From NCBI RefSeq assembly GCF_030506325.1, contig NZ_CP120683.1, positions 434,001 through 498,000 on the forward strand: DNA of 64,000 bases. Reading direction: 5' to 3'. Both the position numbers and the translations under genes were made by a program. Source of the DNA: Tunicatimonas pelagia. Lineage in GTDB: Bacteria > Bacteroidota > Bacteroidia > Cytophagales > Cyclobacteriaceae. Numbering within the stretch: the stretch's first letter is position 1; each line of letters starts with the position of its first letter. The notes below the pieces were generated by a model, which worked only from the letters and a program-made list of their open reading frames with translations, searched no databases and was not told the DNA's origin. Below, in pieces: positions 11,885-32,240 of the stretch.

Positions 11885-12005
11885 TTTTTTTAGGACATTA
11901 AACTAGCACTTCGCTCCTACAAAAGAACATTCTTCTTCGCGACCGAAAGCTTCACTTTTGCTAGTGCAAAGGTTACATCTGTAGCATACCCTAAAAGTAA
12001 TTATA

Positions 12006-12040
12006 CTACAATTAGGAAATTATTCTACATAATACTACAT
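12006..12040 (+). promoter_or_regulatory. CTACAT repeats upstream of padR
   Basis: CTACA occurs at 12006-12010, and CTACAT at 12025-12030 and 12035-12040, the last two exactly 10 bases apart; another TACAT is at 11974-11978. PadR proteins often bind ATGTA/TACAT-type sites, so these are candidate operators of the padR-permease operon. There is no full dyad, so this is weak. Confidence 0.3.
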
Positions 12041-12103
12041 TTAAGAATTAATTGTTGCAAGTGCGTTAATTATCTTGGTTACCACCCCTAACTAGTCACA
12101 TCC

Positions 12104-12445
12104 ATGAAGAAATTTCAGCTCGGTGAATTTGAAGAAATTGTCATGCTCACCGTAGGTGTGCTACACGGAGACGCTTACGGGGTTTCTATCAAAAAAGAAA
12201 TTGAAGAGCGGTTAGATCGCTCGGTCAGTGTTGGTGCTTTACAATCCGCTCTAAAGCGACTGGAAGACAAAGGCTACTTACGCTCGTATTCGGGAGAAGC
12301 TACCCAAGAGCGGGCAGGAAGGCCCAAGCGGTACTTCGAGATTACCGCCTACGGCAAGCAAGCCCTGGAGTACGTAAGAAGCACCCGCAATGCGCTGTGG
12401 GATGCTATTCCCAAGGTAGCCCTGGATGTGAAATATCTACGTTAA
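12104..12445 (+). CDS. PadR-family transcriptional regulator
   Basis: 113 residues with the winged-helix PadR fold: FEEIVMLTVGVLHGDAYGVS at the start, then SVSVGALQSALKRLEDKGYL (recognition helix) and the wing RAGRPKRYFEITAYG. The short length without an extended C-terminal dimerisation domain places it in the small PadR subgroup. It starts the operon and is 6 bases before the first prefix-domain permease. This arrangement matches the ADOP (acidobacterial duplicated orphan permease) systems, where a PadR gene leads orphan FtsX permeases. It probably represses the operon; the inducer is unknown. Confidence 0.93.
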   Translation: MKKFQLGEFEEIVMLTVGVLHGDAYGVSIKKEIEERLDRSVSVGALQSALKRLEDKGYLRSYSGEATQERAGRPKRYFEITAYGKQALEYVRSTRNALWDAIPKVALDVKYLR

Positions 12446-12451
12446 ACCGGT

Positions 12452-15073
12452 ATGCGCCCCACCCCACCCAAATTTCTTCTCCGCTTCTTCCGCTGGTTTT
12501 GCCACCCGGATTTACACAAGTATATCGAAGGCGACCTGCTGGAGCTGTACGAAGAACGGGTGAAGACATCAGGAAGACGAAAAGCCAATATCAAGTTTGC
12601 CTTGGATGTCTTGTTGCTTTTCCGGCTCAGTATTATCCGACCGTTTACACAACATCAATCTATAATTCATACGGCTATGCTTAAAAGCTATTTTACCATT
12701 GCCTTTCGTAACCTAGCGAAAAGAAAATTTTACGCGGGTATCAACATTCTAGGATTATCTATCGGGCTTACCTCCTGCCTACTGATCGTCCTATACATTC
12801 ACCACGAGCTGAGCTACGATACTATGCATACCAAGGCCGACCGAATTTACCGGGTCGGATTGAAAAGTTTAGAAGCAGGAGATATAGTTACTACTGCCCC
12901 GTTAGCATTTACCGCGGTAGAGGAGTTACCAGAAGTAGAAAGTGCCACTCATATCTGTCATTTTCTCAGTACCCAGACGATCCGCTATGATGAAATCACC
13001 ATTGTTGAGGAGAAGATTTACTTTGCTGATTCTACCTTTTTTGATGTCTTTAGTTTTAAACTTCTAGCAGGCGACCCCACCACCGCCCTGACTGAACCTA
13101 ATACCTTGGTTATTACCGAAGAGATGGCTCATAAATACTTTGAAGACGAGCCCGCTCTAGGTAATATCTTACTCGTAGGTGACGGAAAGATACCACATAA
13201 GGTAACTGGGGTGGTAGAAAACCTCCCTTCAAACGTGCACTTCCACTTCAATATGCTACGACCGATGGCTTCGCTAGCATTAAGCCGAGTTGATGATTGG
13301 TTCAGCAATAGCTTTGTTACCTATCTTTTGTTGCACGAAGGTGCTCCTCCCGAATCAATAGAAGCTAAGTTTCCGGGACTAGTGAAAAAATACGTAGGGC
13401 CGGCATTAGAGCGATACTTGGGAGTTTCTTTAGAAACATTTGCTGAACAACAGGGTATTCAGTATGGCTACTTTCTACAACCACTGTTGGACATTCATCT
13501 ACACTCTAATCTGAGGCAAGAGTTAGAACCCAACGGCGATATTACCTACGTATATATTTTCGGTGCTATCGCCTTTTTCATTATTCTGCTGGCCTGCATC
13601 AACTTTATGAACCTAGCTACCGCCCGTGCGGCTAATCGGGCGAAGGAAGTAGGAGTACGCAAAACACTGGGATCATTACGCTCCAGTTTGGTGGGACAAT
13701 TTATGACCGAATCGGTCGTATTGAGCCTAATAGCTACTAGCTTAGCTGTAGTGGCTACTAATCTATTACTTCCTTCTTTTGGCAATATTGCTGGTAGAGA
13801 AATATCATCTGCTCTTTTCACCCAACCCTGGTTCCTACTTAGCTTACTAGGATTGATGCTAGTCGTAGGAATGCTGGCGGGCAGTTACCCCGCATTTTAT
13901 CTCTCATCTTTCCGTCCGGTAGAAGTGCTCAAGGGAAAGCTGAAAGCCGGTGCACGAAGTAGTGGAATTCGGAATACGCTGGTGGTGTTTCAGTTCTTTG
14001 TTTCCATTACACTGATTATCTGTACATTACTAGTATATCGGCAATTGGAATACGCTCAAGCAAAAAACTTAGGGCTTACTAAAGAGAACGTACTGATCGT
14101 GTATGGAGCGCAACGTCTGACCGGTAACCAGCAAGCAGCTTTCAGACTAGCTTTATTAGATAAATCGCAAATAGTGAATGCCAGTGTTTCTAACAGAATT
14201 CCACCGGGCACAATTAGTACAACGATTTTCAGAAAAGCTACTACCGAAGAAGATGCTATCTTGCGTATATATGAGGTTGACTATGACTATCTACCTACGA
14301 TGCAAATTGAACTGCTGGAAGGCAGAAATTTCTCCCAAGACTTCTCCACTGATACCACAGCTATTCTGCTTAATGAAGCCGCCGCCAAGTCATTTGGCTC
14401 GAAGAATCTATTGAATGAAGAAGTGGTGCATACCGGTTCGGGTAGAACTTATCGAGTAATCGGAATAGTTAAGGACTTTAACTTCGAGAGCTTACGAAAT
14501 GAAATACAGCCTTTGGCTTTAACCCTCACTACCCGAGGTTCTTATCTTTCGGCCCGAATTAGCGGTAAAGATGTATCAGCCACGGTGGAACAAATAGAAA
14601 GCCTGTGGGAACAGTATGCTCCGGATCAACCCTTTCAGTACGCTTTTCTGGACGATAACTACGACGCTTTGTTCCGAGCCGAGCAGCGATTGGGCAAAGT
14701 GTTTTCTATTTTCACCGGACTGGCTATCGCCGTGGCTTGTCTGGGACTGCTCGGGTTGGCTACGTTTATGGCTGAGCAGCGCACTAAAGAGGTTGGTATC
14801 CGCAAAGTGATGGGTGCTTCAGAAAGTCATCTTATCCTGCTACTATCGAAAGATTTTACCAAACTGGTCGTAATTGCCTTCGGCATTGCCACTCCCGTCG
14901 CGTATCTCATCGTGCAAAAGTGGTTAGAAGGATTCGCGTATCACACCGACATTGCCCCCTTGATTTTCGTACTATCCGGAACCGGCGCTTTACTCATTGC
15001 CTGGCTTACTGTGAGTTGGCAATCGGTCAAAGCCGCCCTCGCCAACCCCGTAGACTCCCTCAGAAATGAATAA
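12452..15073 (+). CDS. FtsX/MacB-type permease with N-terminal prefix domain, copy 1
   Basis: 873 residues. Residues 1-65 form a cytosolic prefix domain (FLLRFFRWFCHPDLHKYIEG, then DLLELYEER, GRRKANIKFALDVLLLFR) found in all four permeases of this operon. An internal Met76 (MLKSYFTIAFRNL) matches the start of ordinary permeases. Then come TM1 (about 97-116), a MacB-type periplasmic core, an FtsX domain with ANRAKEVGVRKTLGS, a central TM, a second periplasmic core and a second FtsX domain (EVGIRKVMGAS). It probably works with an ATPase encoded elsewhere to move substrates or apply force across the envelope. It ends NPVDSLRNE. The last 8 bases overlap the next gene. Confidence 0.9.
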   Translation: MRPTPPKFLLRFFRWFCHPDLHKYIEGDLLELYEERVKTSGRRKANIKFALDVLLLFRLSIIRPFTQHQSIIHTAMLKSYFTIAFRNLAKRKFYAGINILGLSIGLTSCLLIVLYIHHELSYDTMHTKADRIYRVGLKSLEAGDIVTTAPLAFTAVEELPEVESATHICHFLSTQTIRYDEITIVEEKIYFADSTFFDVFSFKLLAGDPTTALTEPNTLVITEEMAHKYFEDEPALGNILLVGDGKIPHKVTGVVENLPSNVHFHFNMLRPMASLALSRVDDWFSNSFVTYLLLHEGAPPESIEAKFPGLVKKYVGPALERYLGVSLETFAEQQGIQYGYFLQPLLDIHLHSNLRQELEPNGDITYVYIFGAIAFFIILLACINFMNLATARAANRAKEVGVRKTLGSLRSSLVGQFMTESVVLSLIATSLAVVATNLLLPSFGNIAGREISSALFTQPWFLLSLLGLMLVVGMLAGSYPAFYLSSFRPVEVLKGKLKAGARSSGIRNTLVVFQFFVSITLIICTLLVYRQLEYAQAKNLGLTKENVLIVYGAQRLTGNQQAAFRLALLDKSQIVNASVSNRIPPGTISTTIFRKATTEEDAILRIYEVDYDYLPTMQIELLEGRNFSQDFSTDTTAILLNEAAAKSFGSKNLLNEEVVHTGSGRTYRVIGIVKDFNFESLRNEIQPLALTLTTRGSYLSARISGKDVSATVEQIESLWEQYAPDQPFQYAFLDDNYDALFRAEQRLGKVFSIFTGLAIAVACLGLLGLATFMAEQRTKEVGIRKVMGASESHLILLLSKDFTKLVVIAFGIATPVAYLIVQKWLEGFAYHTDIAPLIFVLSGTGALLIAWLTVSWQSVKAALANPVDSLRNE

Positions 15074-17738
15074 TAAGCCTTCGCCACCAAAACTACTCCT
15101 TCGTTTCTTTCGCTGGTTCTGCCACCCAGAGTTGCATAGATTTATTGAGGGGGATCTGCTAGAGCTGTACGAAGAGCGGATGGAAGCATCAGGAAGACGA
15201 AAAGCGAATATCCAGTTTGCTCTGGATGTATTGCTGCTTTTTAGGCCAGGAATTATCCGACCAGTACAACAACCTTACCTCTTAAATTATACCGCTATGT
15301 TTAAAAGCTATTTCAAAATTAGTTGGCGAAATATGCTTGCTCACAAACTATACTCAGCTATCAAGACCGGAGGACTAGCCATCGGCATTGCTGCATGTTT
15401 GTTAATCACTTTATTCATCAAGAATGAGCTTAGCTACGACATGCATTATCCCGATAGTGATCGCATCTACCGAGTACTATTCGAGTACAGCTATCACGGA
15501 GAGCATGGTTTCGGGGTAGCTACCCAAGCCCCTTTAGCAGCAAAGTTAACCAGTGACTTCCCCGAAGTAGAAATAGCCGGACGGCTCAACCCCTACTCTT
15601 TCATGGGGGCGGGGGGTAAGGAAGTTCGCTTCGAGAACCAGCAGAGTAGTCGGTATGAAGAGCATACAGCCTATGCTGATCCAGAGTTATTAAAAGTACT
15701 TCAACCTGTGATGGTGGAGGGCAACCTTCATCGCGCACTTTCCAAGCCTGCTACCGTAGTGATTACAAAGAGTAAAGCTAATCTCTATTTTCCGGGAGAA
15801 AGTGCCTTGGGGAAAGTACTCATTTTCAACGAAGACAACAAACATCCTTACACGATAGACGGGGTCATAGAGGACTTTCCTGAGAACAGTCACCTGAATT
15901 TTGACTTTTTACTAACGCTGAGCGAACAGGAATTTTGGAAAGAAGAGCAACAGTCTTGGCTCAACACCAACTATTTTACCTATGTAAAGATAGCTCCCGG
16001 AACGAATGTAGTTCAACTCGAATCTAAGCTAGCTACCATCCTGCTAGATTATTGCACTCCCGCAATTTCAGCAGTTCTGGAGATAGAACCGGAGTCTATC
16101 CAAGAAAACTTTAAATTTCACCTTCAACCAATCCGAGACGTTCATCTCAATTCTACGCATACCGATGATATGCTAGCTAGCGGAGACATCAAGCTGGTAT
16201 GGTTATTTGGAGCTATTGCTTTCTTCATTCTGTCTCTGGCGAGCATTAACTTTATTAATTTATCCACCGCTAAATCTGCAAACCGAGCGAAGGAAGTAGG
16301 CTTGAGAAAAACGCTGGGTTCACTTCGTAGTAACTTAGTTCAACAGTTCTTGGCCGAATCAGTTCTCTTTAGCATGATTGGGTTCCTGGTAGGCGTACTA
16401 CTAGCTTGGCTACTCCTACCCTACTTTAATTCGCTAGCAGCGAAGTCGCTCATTTTTCCCTGGAAGCAGATATGGTTTGTTCCGAGCATATTTTTGGTTG
16501 CGTTGCTCTTAGGAGTGTCTTCGGGACTCTATCCGGCTTTTTATCTATCTGCTTTCAAACCAGCTAAAATACTAAAGGGCAGTATGCGACAAGGCAGTGG
16601 AAATGCTAAGCTGAGAAATGGCTTGGTAGTATTTCAGTTCGGCATCACCATCGTACTACTAATCGGCACCTTAGTGGTAAACCAACAAATGAATTTCATT
16701 CTCAATGCCAGTATTGGGTTTGAGAAAGATCAAGTTATCCTGTTGCAAGGGGTTCAAACATTGGGCAACAAAGTAGCAACGCTAAAGACTGAACTACTAA
16801 AGCTTCCGGATATAGAGCGAGTATCGGTGAGCGATTACCTCCCAATTACCGGCCCGGAAGTAAAACGAAATGGGACAAGCTTTTGGAAAGAAGGACAAAA
16901 AGGAGAAATCCAAGCGATGGGGCAATTATGGCAGGTAGACGAAGATTACGTGGGAGCGATGGGGATGAACATTTTGAAGGGTAAGGACTTCTCTCGAAAT
17001 AAAGGTTTTAATCGGGAAAAAGCAATCATCAATGAAACACTCGCTCAAAAGTTAGGATTGGATAATCCAATCGGCCAACTGATTGAGAAGAACGGCGGAG
17101 ACGGGGGCAACAAAGTTGAAATAATTGGAGTAGTAGAAGATTTTAATTTTCAATCTTTTAAGGAAAATATTGGTGGGTTATGTCTGATAATTGGAAATAG
17201 CCCATCGATAGCTTCACTAAAAGTACGCACTGGAAATGTGTCTCACCTGCTTCCGGCTATCGAAGAAATCTGGAATCAGTTGTCTCCCACCCAACCTATT
17301 CGGTATGATTTTCTCGATGAGCGGTTTGCGGTGATGTATGGCAATATCCAACAAATGGAGCGGGTGTTTTTTACTTTTGCTCTCTTAGCCGTCATAGTCG
17401 CCTGTTCGGGTTTATTTGCTCTGGCTGCATTTATGGCCGAGCAGCGTAGCAAAGAGATGAGTATTCGTAAAGTGCTAGGAGCCTCAGTTAGTAGTATTTA
17501 CTTCTCATTGACATGGGGCTTCCTGAAGCTAGTGCTTTTTGCTCTAATAATCGCATTCCCCATCGCCTGGTATATAATGCAACAGTGGCTAACTGACTTT
17601 GCCTATCGGATTGAGTTGGCTTGGTGGTTTTTTGGTGCAGCCGCTTTCGCGGTCATTGGAATAACACTATTAACGATCAGCTCACAAGCTCTGAAGTTAT
17701 CCTTTGCCAACCCTGTAGACTCCCTCAGAAATGAATAG
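15066..17738 (+). CDS. FtsX/MacB-type permease with N-terminal prefix domain, copy 2
   Basis: 890 residues with the same layout as copy 1: prefix domain 1-66 (FRWFCHPELHRFIEGDLLEL), internal Met78 (MFKSYFKISWRNM), TM1, periplasmic core, FtsX1 (ANRAKEVGLRKTLGS), second core and FtsX2 (EMSIRKVLGAS), ending NPVDSLRNE. In the prefix, HPELHR is shared with copy 4, while copies 1 and 3 have HPDLHK. The start overlaps copy 1 by 8 bases and its own end overlaps copy 3 by 8 bases, so translation is probably coupled. The bodies of the copies have diverged far more than the prefixes. Substrate unknown. Confidence 0.9.
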   Translation: MNNKPSPPKLLLRFFRWFCHPELHRFIEGDLLELYEERMEASGRRKANIQFALDVLLLFRPGIIRPVQQPYLLNYTAMFKSYFKISWRNMLAHKLYSAIKTGGLAIGIAACLLITLFIKNELSYDMHYPDSDRIYRVLFEYSYHGEHGFGVATQAPLAAKLTSDFPEVEIAGRLNPYSFMGAGGKEVRFENQQSSRYEEHTAYADPELLKVLQPVMVEGNLHRALSKPATVVITKSKANLYFPGESALGKVLIFNEDNKHPYTIDGVIEDFPENSHLNFDFLLTLSEQEFWKEEQQSWLNTNYFTYVKIAPGTNVVQLESKLATILLDYCTPAISAVLEIEPESIQENFKFHLQPIRDVHLNSTHTDDMLASGDIKLVWLFGAIAFFILSLASINFINLSTAKSANRAKEVGLRKTLGSLRSNLVQQFLAESVLFSMIGFLVGVLLAWLLLPYFNSLAAKSLIFPWKQIWFVPSIFLVALLLGVSSGLYPAFYLSAFKPAKILKGSMRQGSGNAKLRNGLVVFQFGITIVLLIGTLVVNQQMNFILNASIGFEKDQVILLQGVQTLGNKVATLKTELLKLPDIERVSVSDYLPITGPEVKRNGTSFWKEGQKGEIQAMGQLWQVDEDYVGAMGMNILKGKDFSRNKGFNREKAIINETLAQKLGLDNPIGQLIEKNGGDGGNKVEIIGVVEDFNFQSFKENIGGLCLIIGNSPSIASLKVRTGNVSHLLPAIEEIWNQLSPTQPIRYDFLDERFAVMYGNIQQMERVFFTFALLAVIVACSGLFALAAFMAEQRSKEMSIRKVLGASVSSIYFSLTWGFLKLVLFALIIAFPIAWYIMQQWLTDFAYRIELAWWFFGAAAFAVIGITLLTISSQALKLSFANPVDSLRNE

Positions 17739-20328
17739 CAACCCTTCACCACCGAAACTACTCCTTCGTTTCTTCCGCTGGTTCTGCCACCCGGATTTAC
17801 ATAAGTATATCGAAGGCGATCTGCTGGAGCTATACAAAGAGTGGGTGAAGGAAAAAGGGAGACGGACTGCTAATATCAAGTTCGCTTGGGACGTACTGCT
17901 GCTCTTCCGACCAGGAATTATTAAACCACTAAAAAGAGATCAACCCTTGAATCATACGGCTATGTTACAACACAACTTACTACTTACTTTCCGCAACTTC
18001 CGTCGCTACAAAAGCACCTTTTTTATTAATCTAATTGGTCTGTCTTCCGGTTTGGCTTGTGCTCTGCTCATTTTCTTATGGGTGCAGGACGAACTAAACG
18101 TAGATAAGTTTCATGCCAAAGACGATCGACTCTATCAGGTAATGGAGAAGCAGCGCGGCGATGAAGGTATTTACACTTCCTTTCAAACTAGAGGGCCGGT
18201 AGCTGATTTGTTGCGGGAGGAAATGCCTCAGATAGAATATGTGGCCGCCGTCGGTCCCGTTTCCTGGGCTGATCATGGCCGTCTCGCGCTTTCTGTAGGT
18301 GAGAAAGCCGTACTAGCAGCGGGACAGTATGTTGGTAAAGATTACTTCAATATCTTTTCTTATGAACTGCTTATCGGCAGTAAAGATCAGGTGCTGGCTG
18401 ACAAAAATTCTATTGTGCTTTCCGAAGAGCTAGCTACCCGGCTCTTTGATTCGGCTCAGGAGGCGGTTGGCAAGTCGGTAGAATTTCAGCAGGAACGAGA
18501 ATTTATTGTTTCGGGTATTTTCAAAGGAACCCCCGCCCGTTCTTCCGTACAATTTGACTTCGCGCTGTCTTTTGAAGCCCTGAAAGATGAAAAACCCTGG
18601 GTAGATGAGTGGGGAAGCAGTGGCCCGTTAGTTTTTGCTATTCTGAGAGAGGGAGCCGATGTTGAACAATTTAACAACGAACTGGAATCTCTGCTGAAAG
18701 AAAAGTTTGGCCACGATATCAATCGTACGATACTGCTCCAGCGCTATTCGGATAACTACCTGTACGGTTCGTATGAAAATGGCGTACGAGTTGGGGGTCG
18801 GATAGAGTACGTTAGATTATTCTCAGTCGTGGCGATCATCATTCTGCTTATTGCCAGTATCAACTTTGTAAATTTAGCTACCGCCCGGGCATCGAGAAGG
18901 CTAAAAGAAATTGGTATAAAAAAGGTAGTCGGTTCCGGACGAAAGAACCTGATTTTTCAGTACATCGGTGAATCCGTTCTAATCAGTTTCTTTTCACTGG
19001 CGGTTGCTATCTTGTTAGTAGCTCTTGCCTTACCGGCGTTCAACGAAATTACCGGAAAGCAATTTACGCTAGGTTTTGATGGCCCCCTTATTTTATCCGC
19101 CCTTATCATCACGTTCGCTACGGGCGTAGTAGCGGGTCTTTATCCGGCACTGTACCTTTCGGGCTTCAAACCAATTACCATACTGAAGGGGAAGCTAACT
19201 CCGTCTTCCGAAGGGGCTTGGGCGCGGAAGGGATTGGTCATATTTCAGTTTACCCTTTCTATTATTCTGATGGTCAGCGTCTGGGTAGTAAACCGGCAAA
19301 TTGCTTTTGTTCAAAATCAGCACTTGGGTTACGATAAAGATAATGTAGTCTACTTTCCAATTACCGGAAGACTAAAAGGGAACGAAGAAACTTTTCTAAC
19401 AGAAATGAAGAAAATACCCGGTGTTCTTAACGCATCTAGTACCGGACACCGCATTGTGGGGCACAACTGGTCGGTTGGAAGCATCAGTTGGGCGGGGAAA
19501 AGTCAGGATGACGAGACGCAATTTCAGGTGGTAACCGCTAACTATAACTTGCTAGAAACATTAGGCATAGAAGTAAAACAGGGGCGTTCTTTCTCTCAGA
19601 CTTTCGGGGCCGAAACCACGAAAATCATATTTAACGAAACCGCTATTGAAGCGATGGGGCTTTCGTCCCCAATCGGTAGTACGGTAGAATTTTTCGGCGA
19701 AAAGGAAATTATTGGGGTAGTCAACGACTTTCACTTCGAGTCTTTACACGAAGAAATAAAGCCGCTATGTTTTGTCATACAGCCTAATTCTGAAAACAGG
19801 ATCATGGCTAAACTACAGTCAGGAAGGGAAAAAGAAACACTAGCCGAACTTCAAAACCTTTACAGTAGCTACAATCCGGGGTTCGTGTTGGATTATCGCT
19901 TCCTGAATGACAACTATCAGGCGTTATACGAAGCTGAGCAACGAGTCTCAACCTTATCCGAATATTTTGCCGGTATCGCCATCCTCATTTCTTGTCTGGG
20001 ATTATTTGGATTAGCCACGTTTACCGCTGAGCGGCGAGTAAAAGAAATCGGTATCCGCAAGGTGTTAGGGTCTAGCGACTTCGGCATTGTTCGTTTACTA
20101 TCCGGCGATTTTACTAAGATGGTGCTAGTAGCCATTGTTATTGCGTTACCCATCAGCTACGTTATTGCCCGGCAGTGGCTGCAAGATTTTGCCTTCAGCA
20201 TTGAGCTGGAATGGTGGTACTTCGCCGGAGCTGGACTGGTAGCCTTACTCATCGCCTGGTTAAGTGTAGGCTTCCAAACAATCAAAGCCGCCCAGATGAA
20301 CCCCGTAGATTCCCTCAGAAATGAATAA
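17731..20328 (+). CDS. FtsX/MacB-type permease with N-terminal prefix domain, copy 3
   Basis: 865 residues. The prefix domain (1-66, HPDLHKYIEGD) carries changes at YKEWVKEKGRRTAN, so it is the most diverged prefix. Internal Met78 (MLQHNLLLTFRNFRRYKSTF) starts the permease body. FtsX1 contains ASRRLKEIGIKKVVGSG, FtsX2 RRVKEIGIRKVLGSS. The end is NPVDSLRNE and overlaps copy 4 by 8 bases. The body differs clearly from copies 1 and 2 (for example WVQDELNVDKFHAKDDRLYQ) and resembles the free-standing minus-strand permease (WVQDETSYDSFHPKADRLYQ), so the copies may not all derive from one local duplication. Confidence 0.9.
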   Translation: MNSNPSPPKLLLRFFRWFCHPDLHKYIEGDLLELYKEWVKEKGRRTANIKFAWDVLLLFRPGIIKPLKRDQPLNHTAMLQHNLLLTFRNFRRYKSTFFINLIGLSSGLACALLIFLWVQDELNVDKFHAKDDRLYQVMEKQRGDEGIYTSFQTRGPVADLLREEMPQIEYVAAVGPVSWADHGRLALSVGEKAVLAAGQYVGKDYFNIFSYELLIGSKDQVLADKNSIVLSEELATRLFDSAQEAVGKSVEFQQEREFIVSGIFKGTPARSSVQFDFALSFEALKDEKPWVDEWGSSGPLVFAILREGADVEQFNNELESLLKEKFGHDINRTILLQRYSDNYLYGSYENGVRVGGRIEYVRLFSVVAIIILLIASINFVNLATARASRRLKEIGIKKVVGSGRKNLIFQYIGESVLISFFSLAVAILLVALALPAFNEITGKQFTLGFDGPLILSALIITFATGVVAGLYPALYLSGFKPITILKGKLTPSSEGAWARKGLVIFQFTLSIILMVSVWVVNRQIAFVQNQHLGYDKDNVVYFPITGRLKGNEETFLTEMKKIPGVLNASSTGHRIVGHNWSVGSISWAGKSQDDETQFQVVTANYNLLETLGIEVKQGRSFSQTFGAETTKIIFNETAIEAMGLSSPIGSTVEFFGEKEIIGVVNDFHFESLHEEIKPLCFVIQPNSENRIMAKLQSGREKETLAELQNLYSSYNPGFVLDYRFLNDNYQALYEAEQRVSTLSEYFAGIAILISCLGLFGLATFTAERRVKEIGIRKVLGSSDFGIVRLLSGDFTKMVLVAIVIALPISYVIARQWLQDFAFSIELEWWYFAGAGLVALLIAWLSVGFQTIKAAQMNPVDSLRNE

Positions 20329-22930
20329 ACAACCTTCACCACCCAAATATATACTTCGTTTTTTCCGCTGGTTCTGTCACCCAGAGTTGCATAGATATAT
20401 TGAAGGGGATCTGCTGGAACTGTACGAAGAGCGGATAAAAGCATCAGGAAGACGAAAAGCCAACATCAAGTTTGCCCTAGATGTTTTGCTGCTATTTCGT
20501 CCCAGTATCATAAAATCAGTGAGTGCCTCTTACCAACCTAATCACTACAGTATGTTTAAGAATTATTTTAAAACTTCCTACCGCAATATGGTGCGGAGCA
20601 AGCTATTCACGACCATCAATGTGGTGGGGCTGGCCGTTAGCATGTCGGTCGGCTTATTGATGGTTGCCTTCATTTCCGACTTACTATCCTATGATAATTT
20701 TCATAAGAAAAAAGACCGAATCTACCGGGTGATTACCACGAACCAACCGGATAACGGACCCGCTATGAACCTGGCATCTACCTCAATAAAGGCCGGATAT
20801 CAAATACGGGAAACCATATCAAACGTGGACACATTGACAATACTCCGCCGGGGGTTTAGTGGTGATGCCGCGGTGGGCGATCATACAGTGCCCTTGCAGG
20901 CATTATGGGCCGATCATTCATTTTTCAACGTGTTCACCTATCCCCTACTACAGGGTGATCCCGCCACGGCACTAGCCGAACCTTATTCGTTAGTGTTGAC
21001 CGAGCCGGCGGCGGAAAAACTATTCGGAAGAACAGATGTGGTGGGGCAGTCGGTGACATTTGACACGGTTAACTATCTGGTTACGGGGGTGGTGCCCGCT
21101 ACGCCCAAACTCTCTCATCTTCAATTCGAGGCGTTAGTATCATTTGCTACCTTTGAGCTTCAAAATCAGCAGGCCGATGAGGATGCTACTGGGTGGGAAA
21201 ACATTTTCATGAATCATGTTTACCTCCTACTACCCCAAGGTCAGAGCCGTCAAGCTCTACAGGCCAGCCTGGATCAATTGAGTGACGCTGAAAATACCGC
21301 GATCCAAAACCGGAGGTTCATGCTCTCCCTACAACCATTAAGTAAAATTTCCATTGGGAGTACCTTAACGAATGAAATAGGCAAATCGGTGAATAATATC
21401 GCCTTGTGGGTACTGCTCGGGCTGACATTTGTCGTAATCCTCTCCGCTTGTTTCAACTACGCCAATCTCTCTATGGCCAGAGCTTTAAAGCGTTCTCGGG
21501 AGGTAGGTATCCGAAAAGTAGTGGGGGCTAGAAAAAGCCAGGTAATTAGTCAGTTTCTCACTGAGGCAGTCATGGTTTCAGTATTGGCACTGGTTGGCTC
21601 TTTTGGATTGTTCTTGCTGTTAAAACAACAGTTTACTGCTTTACACTCCTATATCGACAAACATGTAGTCCTTGACCTCTCCCCTACCTTACTATTGTCG
21701 TTTGGCCTGTTAGCAGTAGTTATCGGTATGATGGCCGGGGTGTTACCCGCTGTATTTTTTTCTCAAATAAAAGTACTACACGTGCTGAAGGGGCTTCCGG
21801 CATTTCGGGCGTTCCGACGGGTTACAATGCGTAAATCGCTGATCGTCACGCAGTATACTTTTTCACTTATGTTTATTACTGCTACCATAATCGGCTATCA
21901 TCAATACCAAAATTTTTTGGCTTTTGACCTGGGCTTCAACACTGAAAACGTGTTGAACATTGATTTGCAGGGCAACCAGGCGGAACTTCTTACGCAAAAG
22001 CTTGCCGCACTACCAGCCGTAAGCGAAATTTCACAATCCGCCCTGGTGAGCAGTCTGGGCAGTGCGTGGAGTACCCATTTAAAATATCAAGATCCCAACG
22101 ACTCTACGAGTGTGTGGCAAAACTTTGTGGATGAGCATTATTTACCGCTTCATGCCTATTCTATGGTAGCAGGCAAAAATTTCACATCTAATCAACAGAG
22201 CCAAGCTATCGTCAATGAGAAGTTGCTGCAACGCTTTGGAATTGGGGAAAATGATCCTTCTCAGGCATTGGGCGAAGTGATAACCTTGGATGGTGAAGAG
22301 ACAGAAATTGTAGGGGTCGTAAAAGACTTTCATTACGAAACGTTGGAAGATGCGATAAAGCCCGTGGTTTTTCGTTACTCTTCCGATCCTGGCCGATACC
22401 TTAACGTAAAAATTTCAGCTACCAACTGGCCGGAAACGTTAGAAAACATTGAACGAGCCTGGAAGGAGCTAGATCCGGTTCATCCGTTAAACGCAAAGTT
22501 GTATGATGACCAACTAGCACACAGCTATAGTCCCTACGTAATGATGGTAAAGGTGATTGGCTTTCTGGCGTTCTTAGCCGTACTCATTTCTTCCATAGGA
22601 TTGTTCGGAATGGTAGTGTTTACTACCGAGACTAAACGTAAGGAAATCAGCATCCGTAAAGTGTTGGGTGCTGGTGAGGGCAGTTTAATGTATTTATTAA
22701 GCAAAAGCTTTTTCAACTTACTAATCATTTCGGCTCTTATTGCCCTACCTATCACCTACCTGTTTTTCGATCAAGTAGTGCTCTCTAATGTAGCTTACCA
22801 TTCGCCGATTGGGTTAAAGGAGCTATTGACTGGTCTGGTGGGAGTATTGACAATAGCACTGTTAATGATTGGCTCCCAAACAATAAGAGCAGTTCGGGTA
22901 AACCCTGCTAAAACCCTGAGTGAGGAATAG
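20321..22930 (+). CDS. FtsX/MacB-type permease with N-terminal prefix domain, copy 4
   Basis: 869 residues and last in the operon. Prefix domain 1-66 (HPELHRYIEGDLLELYEER), internal Met78 (MFKNYFKTSYRNM), TM1, core, FtsX1 (KRSREVGIRKVVGAR), second core and FtsX2 (TKRKEISIRKVLGAG). Unlike the others it ends NPAKTLSEE followed by TAG, so it lacks the codons that create the 8-base overlap, and no further gene is coupled to it. The body is the most divergent of the four. It overlaps copy 3 by 8 bases at its start. Confidence 0.9.
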   Translation: MNKQPSPPKYILRFFRWFCHPELHRYIEGDLLELYEERIKASGRRKANIKFALDVLLLFRPSIIKSVSASYQPNHYSMFKNYFKTSYRNMVRSKLFTTINVVGLAVSMSVGLLMVAFISDLLSYDNFHKKKDRIYRVITTNQPDNGPAMNLASTSIKAGYQIRETISNVDTLTILRRGFSGDAAVGDHTVPLQALWADHSFFNVFTYPLLQGDPATALAEPYSLVLTEPAAEKLFGRTDVVGQSVTFDTVNYLVTGVVPATPKLSHLQFEALVSFATFELQNQQADEDATGWENIFMNHVYLLLPQGQSRQALQASLDQLSDAENTAIQNRRFMLSLQPLSKISIGSTLTNEIGKSVNNIALWVLLGLTFVVILSACFNYANLSMARALKRSREVGIRKVVGARKSQVISQFLTEAVMVSVLALVGSFGLFLLLKQQFTALHSYIDKHVVLDLSPTLLLSFGLLAVVIGMMAGVLPAVFFSQIKVLHVLKGLPAFRAFRRVTMRKSLIVTQYTFSLMFITATIIGYHQYQNFLAFDLGFNTENVLNIDLQGNQAELLTQKLAALPAVSEISQSALVSSLGSAWSTHLKYQDPNDSTSVWQNFVDEHYLPLHAYSMVAGKNFTSNQQSQAIVNEKLLQRFGIGENDPSQALGEVITLDGEETEIVGVVKDFHYETLEDAIKPVVFRYSSDPGRYLNVKISATNWPETLENIERAWKELDPVHPLNAKLYDDQLAHSYSPYVMMVKVIGFLAFLAVLISSIGLFGMVVFTTETKRKEISIRKVLGAGEGSLMYLLSKSFFNLLIISALIALPITYLFFDQVVLSNVAYHSPIGLKELLTGLVGVLTIALLMIGSQTIRAVRVNPAKTLSEE

Positions 22931-23105: not shown

Positions 23106-23597
23106 ATGCGGTTGATCCTCATCATTATCAGCTTTCTATTAAGTACCAATACGGCCGTTTATGCTCAAGATAGGTACGAATACATTGACATTCATACTAT
23201 GCGCGATCAACCAATTGTGAAAGGTACCATCAACGGCAAGGAAGCTTTCTTTTTGCTAGATACTGGAGCGGATGTAAGCCTGATTCACATTAATGACGCT
23301 AAACGTTACGGTTTTTCCTACCATACCCGACACTCCAGGCAAGGGTTTCGTGTCACCGGATTGGGAGCAAGTGTCAAGGGGTTAGTAGGAGTGTACGGTA
23401 TGAATTTAGAGATAGGTTCCCAGAAAATTATTGACGATTATATTGCGGTAGACTTATCCAATATCATCCGTACTTTGCATACCGGCTCAACCGTGAGAAT
23501 TAGCGGTATCATTGGCTGCAAAGCACTCCGACTGCATGGTTTCGTAATTGACTATCACCATAAGAAGGTCAAAATGAAGTTACCCTCCTCCAAATAA
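23106..23597 (+). CDS. Exported retropepsin-like aspartyl protease
   Basis: 163 residues with a clear signal peptide (1-20, ending VYA). The mature part has the retroviral-type aspartyl protease core: FFLLDTGADVSLIH with Asp52-Thr53-Gly54, the flap region around VTGLG, and the hydrophobic SGIIGCKALRLHGFVIDY near the C-terminus. Single-domain members of this family act as dimers. It would be periplasmic or secreted. It stands alone 175 bases after the permease operon. Substrate unknown. Confidence 0.8.
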   Translation: MRLILIIISFLLSTNTAVYAQDRYEYIDIHTMRDQPIVKGTINGKEAFFLLDTGADVSLIHINDAKRYGFSYHTRHSRQGFRVTGLGASVKGLVGVYGMNLEIGSQKIIDDYIAVDLSNIIRTLHTGSTVRISGIIGCKALRLHGFVIDYHHKKVKMKLPSSK

Positions 23598-24565: not shown

Positions 24566-26932
24566 CTATTCACTTCGCAATGCTTTAGCGGGATTAGTAC
24601 GAGCGGCCCGAAGTGCTTGAGTAACTACGAATGCTAGTGCGAAGATCAGAGCAGCTAAGCCAGTAAGCGGAAATATCCACCAGTGGATGTCAGTACGAAC
24701 GGTGTACCGCTCAAGATATTGGCTTAAGGCCCACCAAGCTATTGGGGCGGAGATCACGAAGGCGATAATCACTAGGCGAGAGAAGTCTCTCGACATCAGT
24801 GATATAATGCTAGTCACCGAAGCCCCCAGCACCTTCCGGATTCCGATTTCCTTCGTGCGCTGCTCGGCAGTATACGAGGCTAGTCCGAATAAGCCTAAAC
24901 CGGTAATAACTAATGCCAATACCGTAAATAAATTGGCTAAACTTTTCGTCAGATTGATGATAGTGTACTTCTTCTGGAATTCTACGTCGGCAAATTCGTA
25001 CTTAAACGGATACGCAGGGTTGTGCTTGTTAAAAATATCTTCAACCTGGGTCAGGGCTCCGGGAAGATTATTCGTTTTATCAAGCCGTAGGGAGTAGCCC
25101 CCACCCCAGTCACCCATAAGTATCATCATGGGTTCTATTGGCTGATGGGGAGATCCCATTAGTACATCATCTACAATACCGATGAGTGTTCTCTTCTCTC
25201 CGCCAAATTCAAGCTGGGTTCCGATAGGGTCATCGAGTTGCATAATATCCGCCCCGGCTTTATTCACCAGAATAGCGGCAGTATCACTAGCGAAGTCTTC
25301 CGAAAAATCCCGGCCTTCCAGCACATCAATGCCCATTGTTTTGGTATAGTCGTAGCCCGCTACAATAGTGGAGAAAATTACCCGTTGTTCTTCGGGTTTT
25401 CCGGGCCAACCCAGAAAGTTGTTAGAGTACACATCGGTAATTGGACTGTTAGAGCGGGTCATACTAGTGACTAACCCCGACTGTAATAATTCGTTTTTCA
25501 GCACTTCGTAGTTCTTTTTCAGATCATCGGTTCCCTCTACAAAAATGAGGTTCTCCTGGCTGTACCCAAGTTCACGGTTTTGCACCAGACGTATTTGCTG
25601 GTAAATGACCACGGCTCCGATAATTAGTAAAATTGAGAAACCAAACTGAAGAGTTACTAGCACTTTGCGTGGAGTACTGGCTCCTTTTCCGGCCTTTATC
25701 GTGCCTTTTAGCACCCGAGCCGGTTGAAACGATGACAAATATAACGCTGGGTAGCTACCGGCAATAAGCCCGGTGAACAACACTACTACTAAACTCGCTA
25801 TCCAAAATTGCCAAGTAGAAAAATTGATAAAAAGCTCTTTATCCACTAGATTATTGTAAAATGGCAAAGCCAGTTCCGTAAAAAGTATCGCAATCAGAAA
25901 CGCTAATAATGAGATGAAGATTGCTTCACCCATAAACTGTAGAATCAACTCCCGCCGATGCGAACCCACACTTTTACGGATGCCCACCTCCCGAGCGCGT
26001 CCTTCTGAGCGGGCGGTAGCCAGATTCATAAAATTGATGCAGGCAATCACCAAGATAAAAATAGCAATTGCGGTGAATAGCTGCACATATTCTATCATTC
26101 CCCCTTCTTCTTTGCCATCCTCGAAGTTAGAATGAAGTCGCCAGCGAGCCAGTGGATATAAAAACAGCTCCCGCTTAAAGTCCATATTACCATTTTCGTG
26201 TACAATATCGCGGATACTATTCTCTACCTCAGCCTGATGAGTAGGATCGGTTAGCTCGGCGTATACTTGCCAAGAGTGGTTGTCCCAGTTTTCCTCATGA
26301 TAGCGTTTAACATAATCGAAAGTAGCGTTTAGTTTCCAGGGCAATAAGAAGTCAAATTCAAAAGAGGAGTTACTAGGAATGTCCTCTAATACTCCCATTA
26401 CCTGCAACTCGTGTTTATCATCTACCCGCACCACTTTTCCTATTGGATCCTCTTTATCAAATAATGCCTTAGCAGCGGACTCAGTAATGACAATAGACGA
26501 AGGATCATCAAGCAGTGTACCGCGTTCGCCACCCTGCACCAACGGAAATTCAAACATCTCTAAAAATTCTTCGCTAACAAAGAAGCCTTCTTTAACTATG
26601 GCATCTTCACCAACCGCAAGTAAGTGGTTACCACCCCAATTCGAGACAGCCACTCGCTCAATGTGGCTATTGGCACTTTTAAGGGCTTCGTAGGTAGGTA
26701 ACGGGAGTGCTACTTGGGAGCCAATATCCTCATCCCACTGGGCTTGTAACCAAACCTGGTACAGGCGGTCAGCTTTTGGATGAAAAGAGTCGTACGATGT
26801 TTCGTCTTGCACCCACAGCAAAATCAGAATGCTACAGGTAAGCCCAATAGCCAGACCAAAAATGTTGATGAACGAATAAACCTTGTTCTTAAACAGGTTA
26901 CGGATGGCAATTCGGAGGTAGTTCTTGAACAT
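24566..26932 (-). CDS. Free-standing FtsX/MacB-type permease
   Basis: 788 residues from ATG 26932 (MFKNYLRIAIRNLFKNKVYSF). It has TM1 (FGLAIGLTCSILILLWV), a MacB-type core, FtsX1 (EGRAREVGIRKSVGS), a central TM, a second core and FtsX2 (RTKEIGIRKVLGAS), ending NPAKALRSE. It has no prefix domain and no PadR. The longer frame to 26971 reads into the hairpin leader. Upstream lie the TTGGCAC element and two TGTTC-N6-GAACA-like palindromes, shared with two other permease loci. No ATPase gene is nearby. Confidence 0.92.
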   Translation of the reverse strand: MFKNYLRIAIRNLFKNKVYSFINIFGLAIGLTCSILILLWVQDETSYDSFHPKADRLYQVWLQAQWDEDIGSQVALPLPTYEALKSANSHIERVAVSNWGGNHLLAVGEDAIVKEGFFVSEEFLEMFEFPLVQGGERGTLLDDPSSIVITESAAKALFDKEDPIGKVVRVDDKHELQVMGVLEDIPSNSSFEFDFLLPWKLNATFDYVKRYHEENWDNHSWQVYAELTDPTHQAEVENSIRDIVHENGNMDFKRELFLYPLARWRLHSNFEDGKEEGGMIEYVQLFTAIAIFILVIACINFMNLATARSEGRAREVGIRKSVGSHRRELILQFMGEAIFISLLAFLIAILFTELALPFYNNLVDKELFINFSTWQFWIASLVVVLFTGLIAGSYPALYLSSFQPARVLKGTIKAGKGASTPRKVLVTLQFGFSILLIIGAVVIYQQIRLVQNRELGYSQENLIFVEGTDDLKKNYEVLKNELLQSGLVTSMTRSNSPITDVYSNNFLGWPGKPEEQRVIFSTIVAGYDYTKTMGIDVLEGRDFSEDFASDTAAILVNKAGADIMQLDDPIGTQLEFGGEKRTLIGIVDDVLMGSPHQPIEPMMILMGDWGGGYSLRLDKTNNLPGALTQVEDIFNKHNPAYPFKYEFADVEFQKKYTIINLTKSLANLFTVLALVITGLGLFGLASYTAEQRTKEIGIRKVLGASVTSIISLMSRDFSRLVIIAFVISAPIAWWALSQYLERYTVRTDIHWWIFPLTGLAALIFALAFVVTQALRAARTNPAKALRSE

Positions 26933-26940
26933 AGCTAGTT

Positions 26941-27034
26941 CAGTTAGCAGTTTGCAATGAACAATGAGCAATCAAACTGAAAGAGTTGAAGAGTGTCTTT
27001 CCTTTTCTAATTGCTCACTGCTAACTGTTCATTG
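26941..27034 (-). repeat. Inverted-repeat leader of the minus-strand permease
   Basis: Left arm CAGTTAGCAGT plus GAGCAAT (26941-26972) is complementary to the right arm ATTGCTCACTGCTAACTG near 27010-27027. The leader mRNA can therefore fold into a long hairpin ending about 9 bases before the start codon. The word content differs from the ATTAATGA leaders but the design is the same. Confidence 0.6.
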
Positions 27035-29641: not shown

Positions 29642-29717
29642 AGTGAATAATGATTAATGAAGCTCATTCCTCCATTCTATAGTGGCATTATTCATTATTT
29701 ATCAATCATCAAACATT
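29642..29717 (+). repeat. Hairpin leader abutting permease start
   Basis: AGTGAATAATGATTAATGA (29642-29660) and a roughly complementary arm GCATTATTCATTATTTATCA near 29685-29704 can pair; the right arm runs up to the ATG at 29718. The same 19-base word is at 4669 (minus) and 32910. Confidence 0.6.
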
Positions 29718-32240
29718 ATGTTCAAAAGCTATCTAAAAATCGCCTACCGCAACTTATTGAAGAATAAGATTTTTAGCCTAATTAATATCCTGGGACTAGC
29801 CATTGGCATGGCGGCTTGCCTGCTTATTCTACAATACGTTAGCTTCGAGTTGAGCTATGATAAGTTCCACGCAAAGAGCGACCGGATTTATCGGGCGGTC
29901 CGATATCAGTACAAAGAAGGCACGCTGGATGTTAAATCAGCCCGAACGTTTCCCACCATTGGCCGAGAACTTCGGGAGAACTTTCCGGAAATGGTAGAAT
30001 CTTTCGTTAGAATACACCACCAACCCGGTGTTTTCGCCAAGGTTGATACCGAGCAACCCGAATATTTCGATGAAGAACGGGTGTACTACGCAGATGCTTC
30101 TTTCTTTGATGTATTTTCTTTCCCGTTATTGGTGGGAAATGTTACCCAAACGTTAGCCAATCCCAATACGGTAGTTATTACTCGTTCAGTAGCCAAGAAG
30201 TACTTTGGAGAAGACTGGCAGGAAGTAAACCCAATTGGTAAAACCCTACAATCCCGAACCTATTTTGGTGAAGCCGAACTATTGATTATCGGAGTAGTCG
30301 CTGACCCGCCCAGTAACGCTCATTTTACTTTTGACTTTTTGGTATCTTACCCTACAATGCATTCTTGGCGAGATGGTGATGCTGATTATTACTACGAAGC
30401 GGAAGAGAGTTGGTATTGGAGTGAGGTTTACACTTATTTGGTGCTAAACCCGGGGAAAGATCCGCAGCAATTGGAAGAAGCGTTTGCCCCTATCGTTAGC
30501 CAGCGTACTCCCAGCCGAAGCGAACAAGGATTTACTTTCCGTACTGCCTTACAACCCCTTGAGGAAATTCATTTACGCTCTGCGCTAATGAATGAACTGG
30601 AAGCCGGAGGAAATATCCGCACCGTCTACGTACTGTTGATCGTCGCCCTTTGCATTTTAATTATTGCTTGGGTGAATTTCGTTAACCTTTCGGTGGTAAA
30701 AGCAATTGAACGGAGCAAGGAAGTAGGGCTACGGAAGGTGCTGGGAGCGAAAAGGAAACAATTGATTAAGCAGTATTTGCTAGAGTCAGCACTGCTAAAT
30801 GGAGTAGGAATATTAGTGGCGTTCACCCTGTTTCAACTGAGTCTGCCTTACTTTGAACAGTTTGCCGGAGTTACGATAGATCGTACGCTACTTACGCAAG
30901 GGATAGGTATCGTAGCAATGGGAGGACTATTTATAGTCGGTACTGTACTCAGTGGTTTGTACCCGGCCGCGGTGCTTTCGGCCTACCATCCCGCCAAGGT
31001 ACTCCGAGGCAAGCTTACTCAGAACAGGAAAAGCGGACGATTAAGAAAGGGACTGGTGGTCTTTCAGTTCGCTACCGCTTCGGTGTTCATTATCATTGTC
31101 TTTGTGGTGAGTCAACAGCTATCGTTTATGCGAGATTATGAGTTAGGAGTCAATATTAAGCAAAAACTGGTGATTGAAGGGCCTCACTCGGTAGATAATG
31201 TAGAAGAGTTTAGAGCTAATTCAATTGCCTACAAAACAGCGTTGAAAAGGCATAGCTTAGTCAAACACGCTACTTTTTCTCGTAACGTACCCGCTACTGA
31301 GATCAGGGGTAATAACTACGTTCGGCAACGTGGCAAGCCTGAAGAGGCTAAGTTTTACCACGTGATGGGAGTAGACTACGATTACATGGCTACGTTTGAC
31401 TTGCAGTTGGTTACCGGAAGGTACTTTGACGAAGACCAACCCGTGAGCAATGCGGAGATTATTCAAAATAACGAGAATGCTCCGGACTTTGGTACCAATG
31501 ATCATTCGGTGATGGTAAACGAAACAGCAGTGAAAAAATTAGGCTTTCCGTCGGCAGAAGAAGCGATTGATCAACAAATATTCGTATTTGGCGGAGTGAA
31601 ACAGATTGTGGGAGTAGTAAAAGACTATCACCATAAATCGCTAAAGAGTAGCTTTGAACCCATTATTTTCTACCTCCAGCCCACCGGTTGGGAATACGTT
31701 ACGTTGGATATACAAGCCTCTGATAATTCTGTGGTACGTATTGATGAAATCATTGCTTACGCTGAACAGCAGTGGAAAGTATTTTATCCCGATGAACCCT
31801 TTCAGTACTTCTTTTTGGATGATCGGTTCAATCAGCAATACCAAGCCGACCAGCAATTTCATCTATTGTTCAACTTGTTCTCTGGGCTAGTCATCTTTAT
31901 TGCTTGTATGGGGCTGTTTGGATTGTCTTCGTACGCCGCTGTGCAAAAGACCAAGGAGATAGGAGTGCGTAAGGTACTGGGGGCTTCGGTACAAAGTGTT
32001 GTTGCTCTGCTTTCTCGAGACTTCATAAGGCTCGTACTGATCTCCAGCGTTTTGGCGTTACCCCTCGCCTACTGGGCCACCCGACAGTGGCTAGAGAATT
32101 ACGCCTTTCGGGTAGACATTCACTGGTGGATGTTTTTGCTACCGTTATTAGCTGTTTTAGTTATTGCGCTACTCACCGTCAGCGTTCAAACCATCCGAGC
32201 AGCTTTGGCCAACCCAGCAGACTCGTTGCGAAATGAGTAG
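29718..32240 (+). CDS. Free-standing FtsX/MacB-type permease
   Basis: 840 residues from ATG 29718 (MFKSYLKIAYRNLLKNKIFSL). TM1 (LGLAIGMAACLLILQYV), first core, FtsX1 (ERSKEVGLRKVLGAK), second core and FtsX2 (KTKEIGVRKVLGAS), ending NPADSLRNE. It has no prefix domain. The longer frame from 29682 reads FIIYQSSNI inside the hairpin leader. Its stop is directly followed, without a gap, by the stop of the convergent Uma2 gene. Its upstream control elements match those of the remnant at 32993, so the two loci are duplicates. Confidence 0.92.
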   Translation: MFKSYLKIAYRNLLKNKIFSLINILGLAIGMAACLLILQYVSFELSYDKFHAKSDRIYRAVRYQYKEGTLDVKSARTFPTIGRELRENFPEMVESFVRIHHQPGVFAKVDTEQPEYFDEERVYYADASFFDVFSFPLLVGNVTQTLANPNTVVITRSVAKKYFGEDWQEVNPIGKTLQSRTYFGEAELLIIGVVADPPSNAHFTFDFLVSYPTMHSWRDGDADYYYEAEESWYWSEVYTYLVLNPGKDPQQLEEAFAPIVSQRTPSRSEQGFTFRTALQPLEEIHLRSALMNELEAGGNIRTVYVLLIVALCILIIAWVNFVNLSVVKAIERSKEVGLRKVLGAKRKQLIKQYLLESALLNGVGILVAFTLFQLSLPYFEQFAGVTIDRTLLTQGIGIVAMGGLFIVGTVLSGLYPAAVLSAYHPAKVLRGKLTQNRKSGRLRKGLVVFQFATASVFIIIVFVVSQQLSFMRDYELGVNIKQKLVIEGPHSVDNVEEFRANSIAYKTALKRHSLVKHATFSRNVPATEIRGNNYVRQRGKPEEAKFYHVMGVDYDYMATFDLQLVTGRYFDEDQPVSNAEIIQNNENAPDFGTNDHSVMVNETAVKKLGFPSAEEAIDQQIFVFGGVKQIVGVVKDYHHKSLKSSFEPIIFYLQPTGWEYVTLDIQASDNSVVRIDEIIAYAEQQWKVFYPDEPFQYFFLDDRFNQQYQADQQFHLLFNLFSGLVIFIACMGLFGLSSYAAVQKTKEIGVRKVLGASVQSVVALLSRDFIRLVLISSVLALPLAYWATRQWLENYAFRVDIHWWMFLLPLLAVLVIALLTVSVQTIRAALANPADSLRNE

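Follow-up and report, generated by a model that had tools for sequence, protein, structure and literature searches.

A PadR-linked prefix domain as a probable portable tag of orphan double permeases in Tunicatimonas pelagia

The genome of Tunicatimonas pelagia (7.29 Mb) contains a padR gene that is followed by four genes for orphan permeases, all of which start with the same small prefix domain. The operon lies in a 64,000-nt stretch of contig NZ_CP120683.1 (positions 434001-498000), which is referred to as the window and provides the coordinates used here for the operon. All five open reading frames (ORFs) are on the forward strand and were re-found at the positions given in a preliminary description of this DNA: padR at 12104..12445 (113 amino acids), permease 1 at 12452..15073 (873 amino acids), permease 2 at 15066..17738 (890 amino acids), permease 3 at 17731..20328 (865 amino acids) and permease 4 at 20321..22930 (869 amino acids). 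That the four permease genes form a single message, and hence an operon, is assumed from an overlap of 8 nt at each of the permease-permease boundaries. PadR matches PF03551 with 47.1 bits (cut-off 27), and every permease matches MacB_PCD and FtsX of Pfam in two stretches, which makes it a duplicated permease. The N-terminal prefix of about 60 residues is matched in all four proteins by the NCBIfam model perm_prefix_2 (NF038404; 53.2-60.5 bits, cut-off 35) at approximately residues 5-65, corresponding to 12464..12640, 15084..15260, 17749..17925 and 20339..20515, respectively. It is therefore a domain already named in NCBIfam, which corrects the preliminary description. The four prefixes share 78-86% identity, the four bodies 27-38%. 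None of the 52 ABC ATPase matches in the genome (E <= 1e-10) lies inside any prefix operon, that of the window included. The ORFs, the Pfam and NCBIfam matches and the ATPase search thus bear out the described operon, in which a PadR gene leads orphan double permeases that have a prefix in common.

The permeases had also been called similar to the acidobacterial duplicated orphan permeases (ADOPs), which holds true as kinship: all four have the ADOP-type layout of a duplicated MacB_PCD-FtsX without an ATPase, and they stand near a PadR of a related subfamily. However, the window scores far below the cut-offs of both models, as the bodies reach 261.2-298.2 bits with the ADOP model TIGR03434 (cut-off 622.3) and PadR reaches 38.1 bits with padR_acidobact (TIGR03433, cut-off 101.8). 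The best equivalog-type match of the bodies is DarB (NF038008), although they miss its cut-off of 700 as well (103.9-147.8 bits). According to the model names, DarB pairs with the ATPase DarD and the adaptor DarC; it has no prefix, and the window genes have no ATPase beside them. NF038404 and NF038403 (perm_prefix_1) merely name domains. The phrase “permease prefix domain” was not found in a literature search, for which most subscription journals were outside reach, and copies annotated by RAST as “duplicated orphan permease” have been counted in Dyadobacter in published work, as far as its accessible text goes.

The prefix is closely associated with padR. Among the sequences of T. pelagia, 29 prefix domains exceed the NF038404 cut-off, and the Pfam search returned 16 PadR genes. 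All 29 prefixes belong to PadR-led clusters, and the arrangement in the window is therefore not due to chance. There are 13 such clusters, or 14 after addition of a PadR that the Pfam search did not see (2966497-2966808) and that splits one two-permease cluster into two. T. pelagia and eight further genomes together contain 109 prefixes in 64 clusters, 62 of which have a PadR on the same strand at most 1.2 kb ahead, counted without 12 PadR rows scoring below the Pfam cut-off. One of the two other clusters has a PadR-like ORF upstream that was recognized by eye and missed by the Pfam search (stretch L170, 2065-2538); the second begins 131 nt from a contig end and was excluded from the testable set. 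After the cluster split the total is 65, and the testable clusters are PadR-led in 64 out of 64 cases. In the reverse direction, a scan with the PadR of the window operon, which biases the set to close kin, found 79 PadR relatives. A prefixed permease or its start lies downstream in 75 of the 76 testable ones, with gaps of at most 189 nt plus one of 1038 nt; three relatives (L116, L119, L123) end too early on their contigs and were left out. In the one exception (L055, 6001-6540) padR adjoins, judged by eye, only the apparent 3' end of a permease gene, and we read this as a decayed operon. The nearest outside PadRs among the 79 relatives found are 91-92% identical and belong to two Flammeovirgaceae metagenome-assembled genomes and to Catalimonadaceae bacterium JC749. 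None of the 52 double permeases of T. pelagia without a prefix (untagged permeases) has a PadR-like ORF directly upstream; within the fetched stretches, the nearest such ORFs on the same strand are 12.4 and 17.2 kb away. A prefix occurring mostly without padR had been named beforehand as the outcome that would speak against the link, and the reverse was found. The prefix is patchily distributed: a phylum sample of 61 genomes has it in 2 and an order sample of 59 in 13 (T. pelagia included), with up to 29 copies. In another PadR operon (L126, 12289-19046; approximately 393.8-400.5 kb), the fourth prefixed permease is split by an ORF of 486 amino acids on the opposite strand that by eye resembles a transposase, and an untagged permease, the only one at the tail of a prefix operon, starts 114 nt after the 3' permease part.

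Moreover, the sequence of the prefix follows the PadR of its operon, whereas the body does not. The analysis of co-variation comprised 121 of 127 prefixed genes, among them 27 of the 29 of T. pelagia (a fragment of 113 amino acids and a gene read from a late start were left out). In T. pelagia, 25 pairs from the same operon have a mean identity of 0.77 in the prefix and 0.34 in the body, compared to 0.40 and 0.32 in 326 pairs from different operons, a difference that was reached in 0 of 5000 permutations. Across 89 operons, rho is 0.73 between PadR identity and prefix identity and 0.21 between PadR identity and body identity (partial correlations 0.71 and 0.03). Since the adjacency of padR to the first prefix could create such a correlation, the last non-first genes of 19 multi-gene operons were tested separately, which gave 0.80 for the prefix (Mantel test, 0/2000) and -0.13 for the body.

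A tree of the bodies of 79 complete double permeases of T. pelagia, 27 tagged with the prefix and 52 untagged, was made from the complete permeases of the fetched stretches (two broken tagged genes were left out). On this tree the tag label changes 22 times compared to a mean of 22.7 after shuffling, and at least 10 changes are forced by the starred branches. According to the tree, the prefix is spread over the bodies as if at random; as the tree was built with a quick method, has several long branches and is unrooted, it does not distinguish gain from loss. The bodies of permeases 1 and 3 each have an untagged relative in the same genome, with 67% and 59% identity, respectively. Four of five tagged/untagged pairs have a DNA identity of 57-80% downstream of and including the untagged gene's start codon, and of 10-43% ahead of it; the fifth (pair 3), for which the wrong methionine (Met) of the untagged gene had been used and which has no rise in identity there, was not counted. 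This step in identity places the fusion point at the untagged start codon.

The corresponding junction ATG is located at codon 76 of permease 1 (12677..12679) and at codon 78 of permeases 2, 3 and 4 (15297..15299, 17962..17964 and 20552..20554, all on the forward strand). Of 123 tagged genes, 113 have Met at the junction, and the linker residues that precede it are variable. Folding was analyzed in 102 of these 113 genes, with genes containing N letters, short genes and those with less than three other Mets left out; later tests comprised up to 104. Segments of 60 nt at the junction ATG have a mean folding energy of -2.92 kcal/mol compared to -10.69 kcal/mol at other internal Mets, the junction being less folded in 101 of 102 genes; the controls also included annotated starts (-7.84 kcal/mol) and 47 starts of untagged permeases (-5.08 kcal/mol). 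The junction is also less folded than segments of equal G+C content from the same gene (83 of 87). In synonymous shuffles that keep amino acids and codon usage, the junction is less folded than expected with a z of +1.12 (93/102 positive), compared to -0.15 for random internal Mets (51/102). The z is positive in 35 of 36 genes after thinning to less than 60% prefix identity, in 23 of 25 genes of T. pelagia and in 75 of 81 when one gene per operon is taken. Furthermore, the effect is local, with 96 of 104 genes positive at the junction itself, 64 of 104 at 15 codons before and 56 of 104 at 15 codons after it. Junctions without Met (9 scored of 10) are more folded (-8.66 vs. -2.87, p 1e-4) and have a lower synonymous z (0.41 vs. 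1.16, p 0.013). Ahead of the ATG, third positions are enriched in A or T (+0.20 over codons -12 to -7), and 93% of the junctions have A at nucleotide -12 and 63% have it at -13. Initiation in Flavobacterium johnsoniae becomes stronger with adenines at -3, -6, -12 and -13, and nucleotides near its starts pair less; Shine-Dalgarno (SD) sequences are absent from this species, as from Bacteroidota generally (PMC6847099, accessible part).

The mRNA at the junction is thus apparently selected to stay unfolded. As the untagged start codon is kept within unfolded mRNA, each gene may give rise to two permeases, one with and one without the tag. The evidence for an untagged second product is good, if indirect, and we regard the use of the junction ATG as an internal start as an even call. 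This junction-start signal is a new element of the present analysis; a literature search for internal initiation with MacB/FtsX permeases returned nothing relevant, although most subscription journals were outside its reach. The unfolded mRNA could alternatively be a property of the linker that slows or speeds elongation before the first transmembrane segment, with no second protein made, and we rate this explanation somewhat below even. It would fit that the linker residues are A-rich by codon, that G and not A is found at -3 of the junction ATG in 80%, and that SD-like 5-mers precede only 6 of 113 junctions, a count of little weight in a phylum without SD sequences. In the window itself, all four junctions are weakly folded in absolute terms, with minimum free energies of -3.7, -1.0, -0.9 and -3.8 for permeases 1 to 4, but the synonymous z is near zero in two genes (-0.07 and -0.33 for permeases 1 and 4) and above 1 in the other two (1.23 and 1.90 for permeases 2 and 3); permease 1 alone thus gives no support at the codon level. 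On the other hand, the linker explanation does not account for selection on synonymous codons that is limited to the ATG, for the stronger folding of the junctions without Met, or for the adenines at those positions that raise initiation in F. johnsoniae. The 21 nt before the 47 starts of untagged permeases of T. pelagia have an uneven, roughly three-base A/T pattern, with T at -1 in 72%, T at -2 in 60% and A at -7 in 62%.

The arrangement resembles the pairs of PadR with the HAAS domain. HAAS has been described as three helices with a GxP kink in the third, is coupled to a neighboring PadR, is fused, among others, to FtsX-MacB permeases and was proposed as an alternative to two-component signaling (PMC11237479, here and below according to its accessible part). 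HAAS-PadR pairs, permease fusions included, are therefore already published, the system of the window is a variant of them, and the earlier statement that no function is known went too far. The two have in common a small helical N-terminal domain ahead of the membrane part, fusions to MacB/FtsX, and a neighboring stand-alone PadR, to which the prefix is coupled as HAAS is. Three helices are predicted for the prefix in both structure models described below, the one of the prefix alone being weak, and the prefix ends in a conserved RP motif (R 0.94, P 0.85), whereas HAAS has GxP. In contrast to the HAAS-PadR pairs, one PadR here serves up to six permeases, the bodies are exchanged, and a junction-start signal is absent from the accessible HAAS account. 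The prefix has no Pfam match in the four permeases, and neither Pfam nor PDB sequence searches revealed a HAAS relative of the prefix or of a HAAS-like set. Naming the prefix HAAS was not accepted, as no sequence match and, with the weak model of the prefix, no fold match was found. A portable tag for coupling to PadR, with a role like that of HAAS, is a likely reading of the prefix, although sequence searches did not connect it with HAAS. A related case is LftRS/LltR of Listeria, in which PadR auto-represses its operon and the next gene encodes a DUF1048 or DUF1700 protein (PMC4517056; PMC6624303), both of which are assigned to the HAAS superfamily (PMC11237479). However, this partner is no MacB-type permease, and the accessible parts of these papers describe no exchanged permease array (PMC4517056; PMC6624303).

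The nine genomes hold 86 PadRs that exceed the Pfam cut-off, and 24 of these lead no prefix cluster. Inspection by eye of 23 of the 24 placed 11 ahead of small HAAS-like membrane proteins, 9 ahead of PspC-like proteins (three of which also match PF22564, one of them below the cut-off), one ahead of a perm_prefix_1 permease and two ahead of something else. A helical domain at such a place beside PadR is thus a recurring theme. The perm_prefix_1 permease, a sister ADOP-like protein of genome G087 (L190, 387-2701), has its domain in the same place (40.5 bits, cut-off 30) and stands directly behind a PadR of 91.7 bits (Pfam), outside the prefix clusters. Approximately 4 kb from prefix operon E, a PadR is followed by a membrane protein of 227 amino acids with a HAAS-like N-terminus and a weak perm_prefix_1 match of 22 bits (L039, 770-1761; approximately 2.657 Mb).

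Structure models suggest that PadR and the prefix may be in physical contact. The prefix modeled alone reached a predicted local distance difference test score (pLDDT) of 65 and a predicted template modeling score (pTM) of 0.43, with helix blocks at 64-77. When PadR and prefix were modeled as one read-through chain, in which the natural stop is bypassed in the same frame, the prefix helices reached a pLDDT of 93-96 at 90.6 overall; 13 natural PadR-prefix pairs in the same frame are among the 105 rows. Since the pTM of the read-through model is 0.58 and the two models were built on different alignments, docking of the prefix to PadR is suggested rather than established by this comparison. Foldseek with the weak model of the prefix alone found no match in the PDB at E <= 0.001, and with the model of PadR plus prefix it matched PadR-family structures.

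Two copies of the motif TACTACA-WTTARGAA precede padR on the forward strand and are candidate PadR operators: TACTACAATTAGGAA at 12004..12018, an exact match of TACTACAWTTARGAA, and TACTACATTTAAGAA at 12033..12047. The chance expectation in the window, with up to one mismatch, is 0.02 matches. The whole genome contains four exact sites, three of them before PadR operons, and eight more with one mismatch, two of them before PadR operons; a reversed control pattern has seven matches in all. The fourth exact site is within a gene and was taken as chance. The operator pattern ATGT-N8-ACAT was rejected, as none of 86 upstream regions contains it. By eye, other motifs seem to be present in operons of other PadR types. 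PadR would bind at the TACTACA-WTTARGAA sites and, by analogy to its relatives, repress its own operon: in a Listeria lltR mutant, the own operon including the DUF1700 gene is up more than 100-fold (PMC6624303, accessible part).

As a source of power, ATPases similar to DarD come into consideration, of which there are three in T. pelagia and three to five in six related genomes (E <= 1e-60), none reaching the DarD model cut-off. One is encoded together with a DarC-like adaptor and without an adjoining permease at 2.833-2.836 Mb (L217, 4432-6875), a second one with an outer-membrane efflux protein at 2.84 Mb (L217, 11548-13597; region 2.833-2.843 Mb). It is possible, and we propose it tentatively, that few shared DarD-like ATPases power the orphan permeases in trans. 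The DarC-like/DarD-like pair adjoins a sigma-54 response regulator and a histidine kinase.

The best explanation overall, to which we give a somewhat better than even chance, is that the prefix is a portable PadR-coupling tag with the part that HAAS plays in a HAAS-PadR pair. All four genes encode complete double permeases of the MacB/DarB-like kind, and the tag, being ahead of the first transmembrane segment, is expected in the cytoplasm. PadR would repress its own operon at the repeated sites until a tagged permease encounters its ligand or is at work; its tag would then alter PadR activity, by release or by membrane capture, and any of the four substrates could induce the operon. For the sign and direction of this signaling the chances are about even. 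Permeases would come under PadR control by joining the tag of the operon exactly at the untagged start codon, which would probably stay in use and give a tagged (sensing) and an untagged (transport) form per gene, and ATP would be supplied in trans by the few DarD-like ATPases elsewhere in the genome. The complete version, in which a PadR-binding module of about 75 residues ends in its own start, one gene gives a tagged reporter and an untagged transporter, sets of permeases stand under one regulator with few shared ATPases, and control is gained or lost with the tag, falls a little short of even.

Several observations weigh against a coupling tag of the HAAS type. Within T. pelagia alone, the PadR-prefix rho drops to 0.33 for first and 0.53 for non-first genes (bodies 0.06 and 0.07), and shared ancestry adds to the co-variation, because the operons stem from many lineages. 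The untagged permease of L126 sits at the tail of a PadR operon. The motif core ACTACA.TTA[AG]GA is present in 39 of 87 PadR upstream regions and not in all. Comparison of the prefix with 14 HAAS-like proteins picked by eye gave 0.2% in hhalign, and PF22564 is unmatched anywhere in the genome at E <= 0.01. Finally, fourfold-degenerate sites agree to 0.49 among prefixes of the same operon, compared to 0.30 among the bodies and 0.33 among prefixes of different operons, so that the prefixes of an operon are related more recently than the bodies; being above the background of about 0.3, the value of 0.49 also indicates that local copying of prefixes contributes.

Such copying within operons would be expected if padR and the prefixes just travelled together and were homogenized by recombination, with no effect of the prefix on PadR. 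We consider this unlikely, as 78% of the residues are conserved although half of the silent sites differ, which points to selection on the prefix protein, as distant non-first prefixes track PadR as well, and as the prefix was found solely behind padR in the genomes examined. It is still less probable that the prefix recruits a general partner, for instance the missing ATPase or an insertion factor, with padR linked for another reason: no prefix operon has its own ATPase and the position before the first transmembrane segment would suit such a role, but the untagged double permeases of the same family and genome do without the prefix, and a general partner leaves unexplained why the prefix follows the PadR of its operon. 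Least probable, and rejected, is the hetero-oligomeric membrane complex that the preliminary description had considered on account of four distinct bodies encoded in one compact array, as each body is already duplicated, 40 of the 62 PadR-led clusters hold one prefixed permease and the others two to six, bodies change while the prefix stays, and bodies of one operon are no more alike than those of different operons and are mixed with untagged ones on the tree. With a portable tag, the four permeases would instead be alternative inputs to one PadR and not one complex, and the data agree with the other idea put forward at that time, a set of alternative subunits for one PadR signal.

Orphan duplicated permeases are present in dozens of copies in this genome. 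An exchangeable tag linked to PadR would provide a concrete rule for 27 of the 79 complete ones, or about a third, and would bring into HAAS-PadR-type signaling a domain missed by the HAAS models. Should translation also start internally, both a sensor and a transporter would come from every tagged gene, which would couple transport to its own expression in a simple way and escape annotation. A few shared ATPases may be the power source of many orphan permeases.

Directly 3' of the operon, an ORF of 163 amino acids (23106-23597) encodes a clan AA aspartyl protease matching PF13650 over the cut-off. Two untagged double permeases are encoded near the operon, at 24566-26971 on the reverse and at 29682-32237 on the forward strand, neither of them behind a padR.

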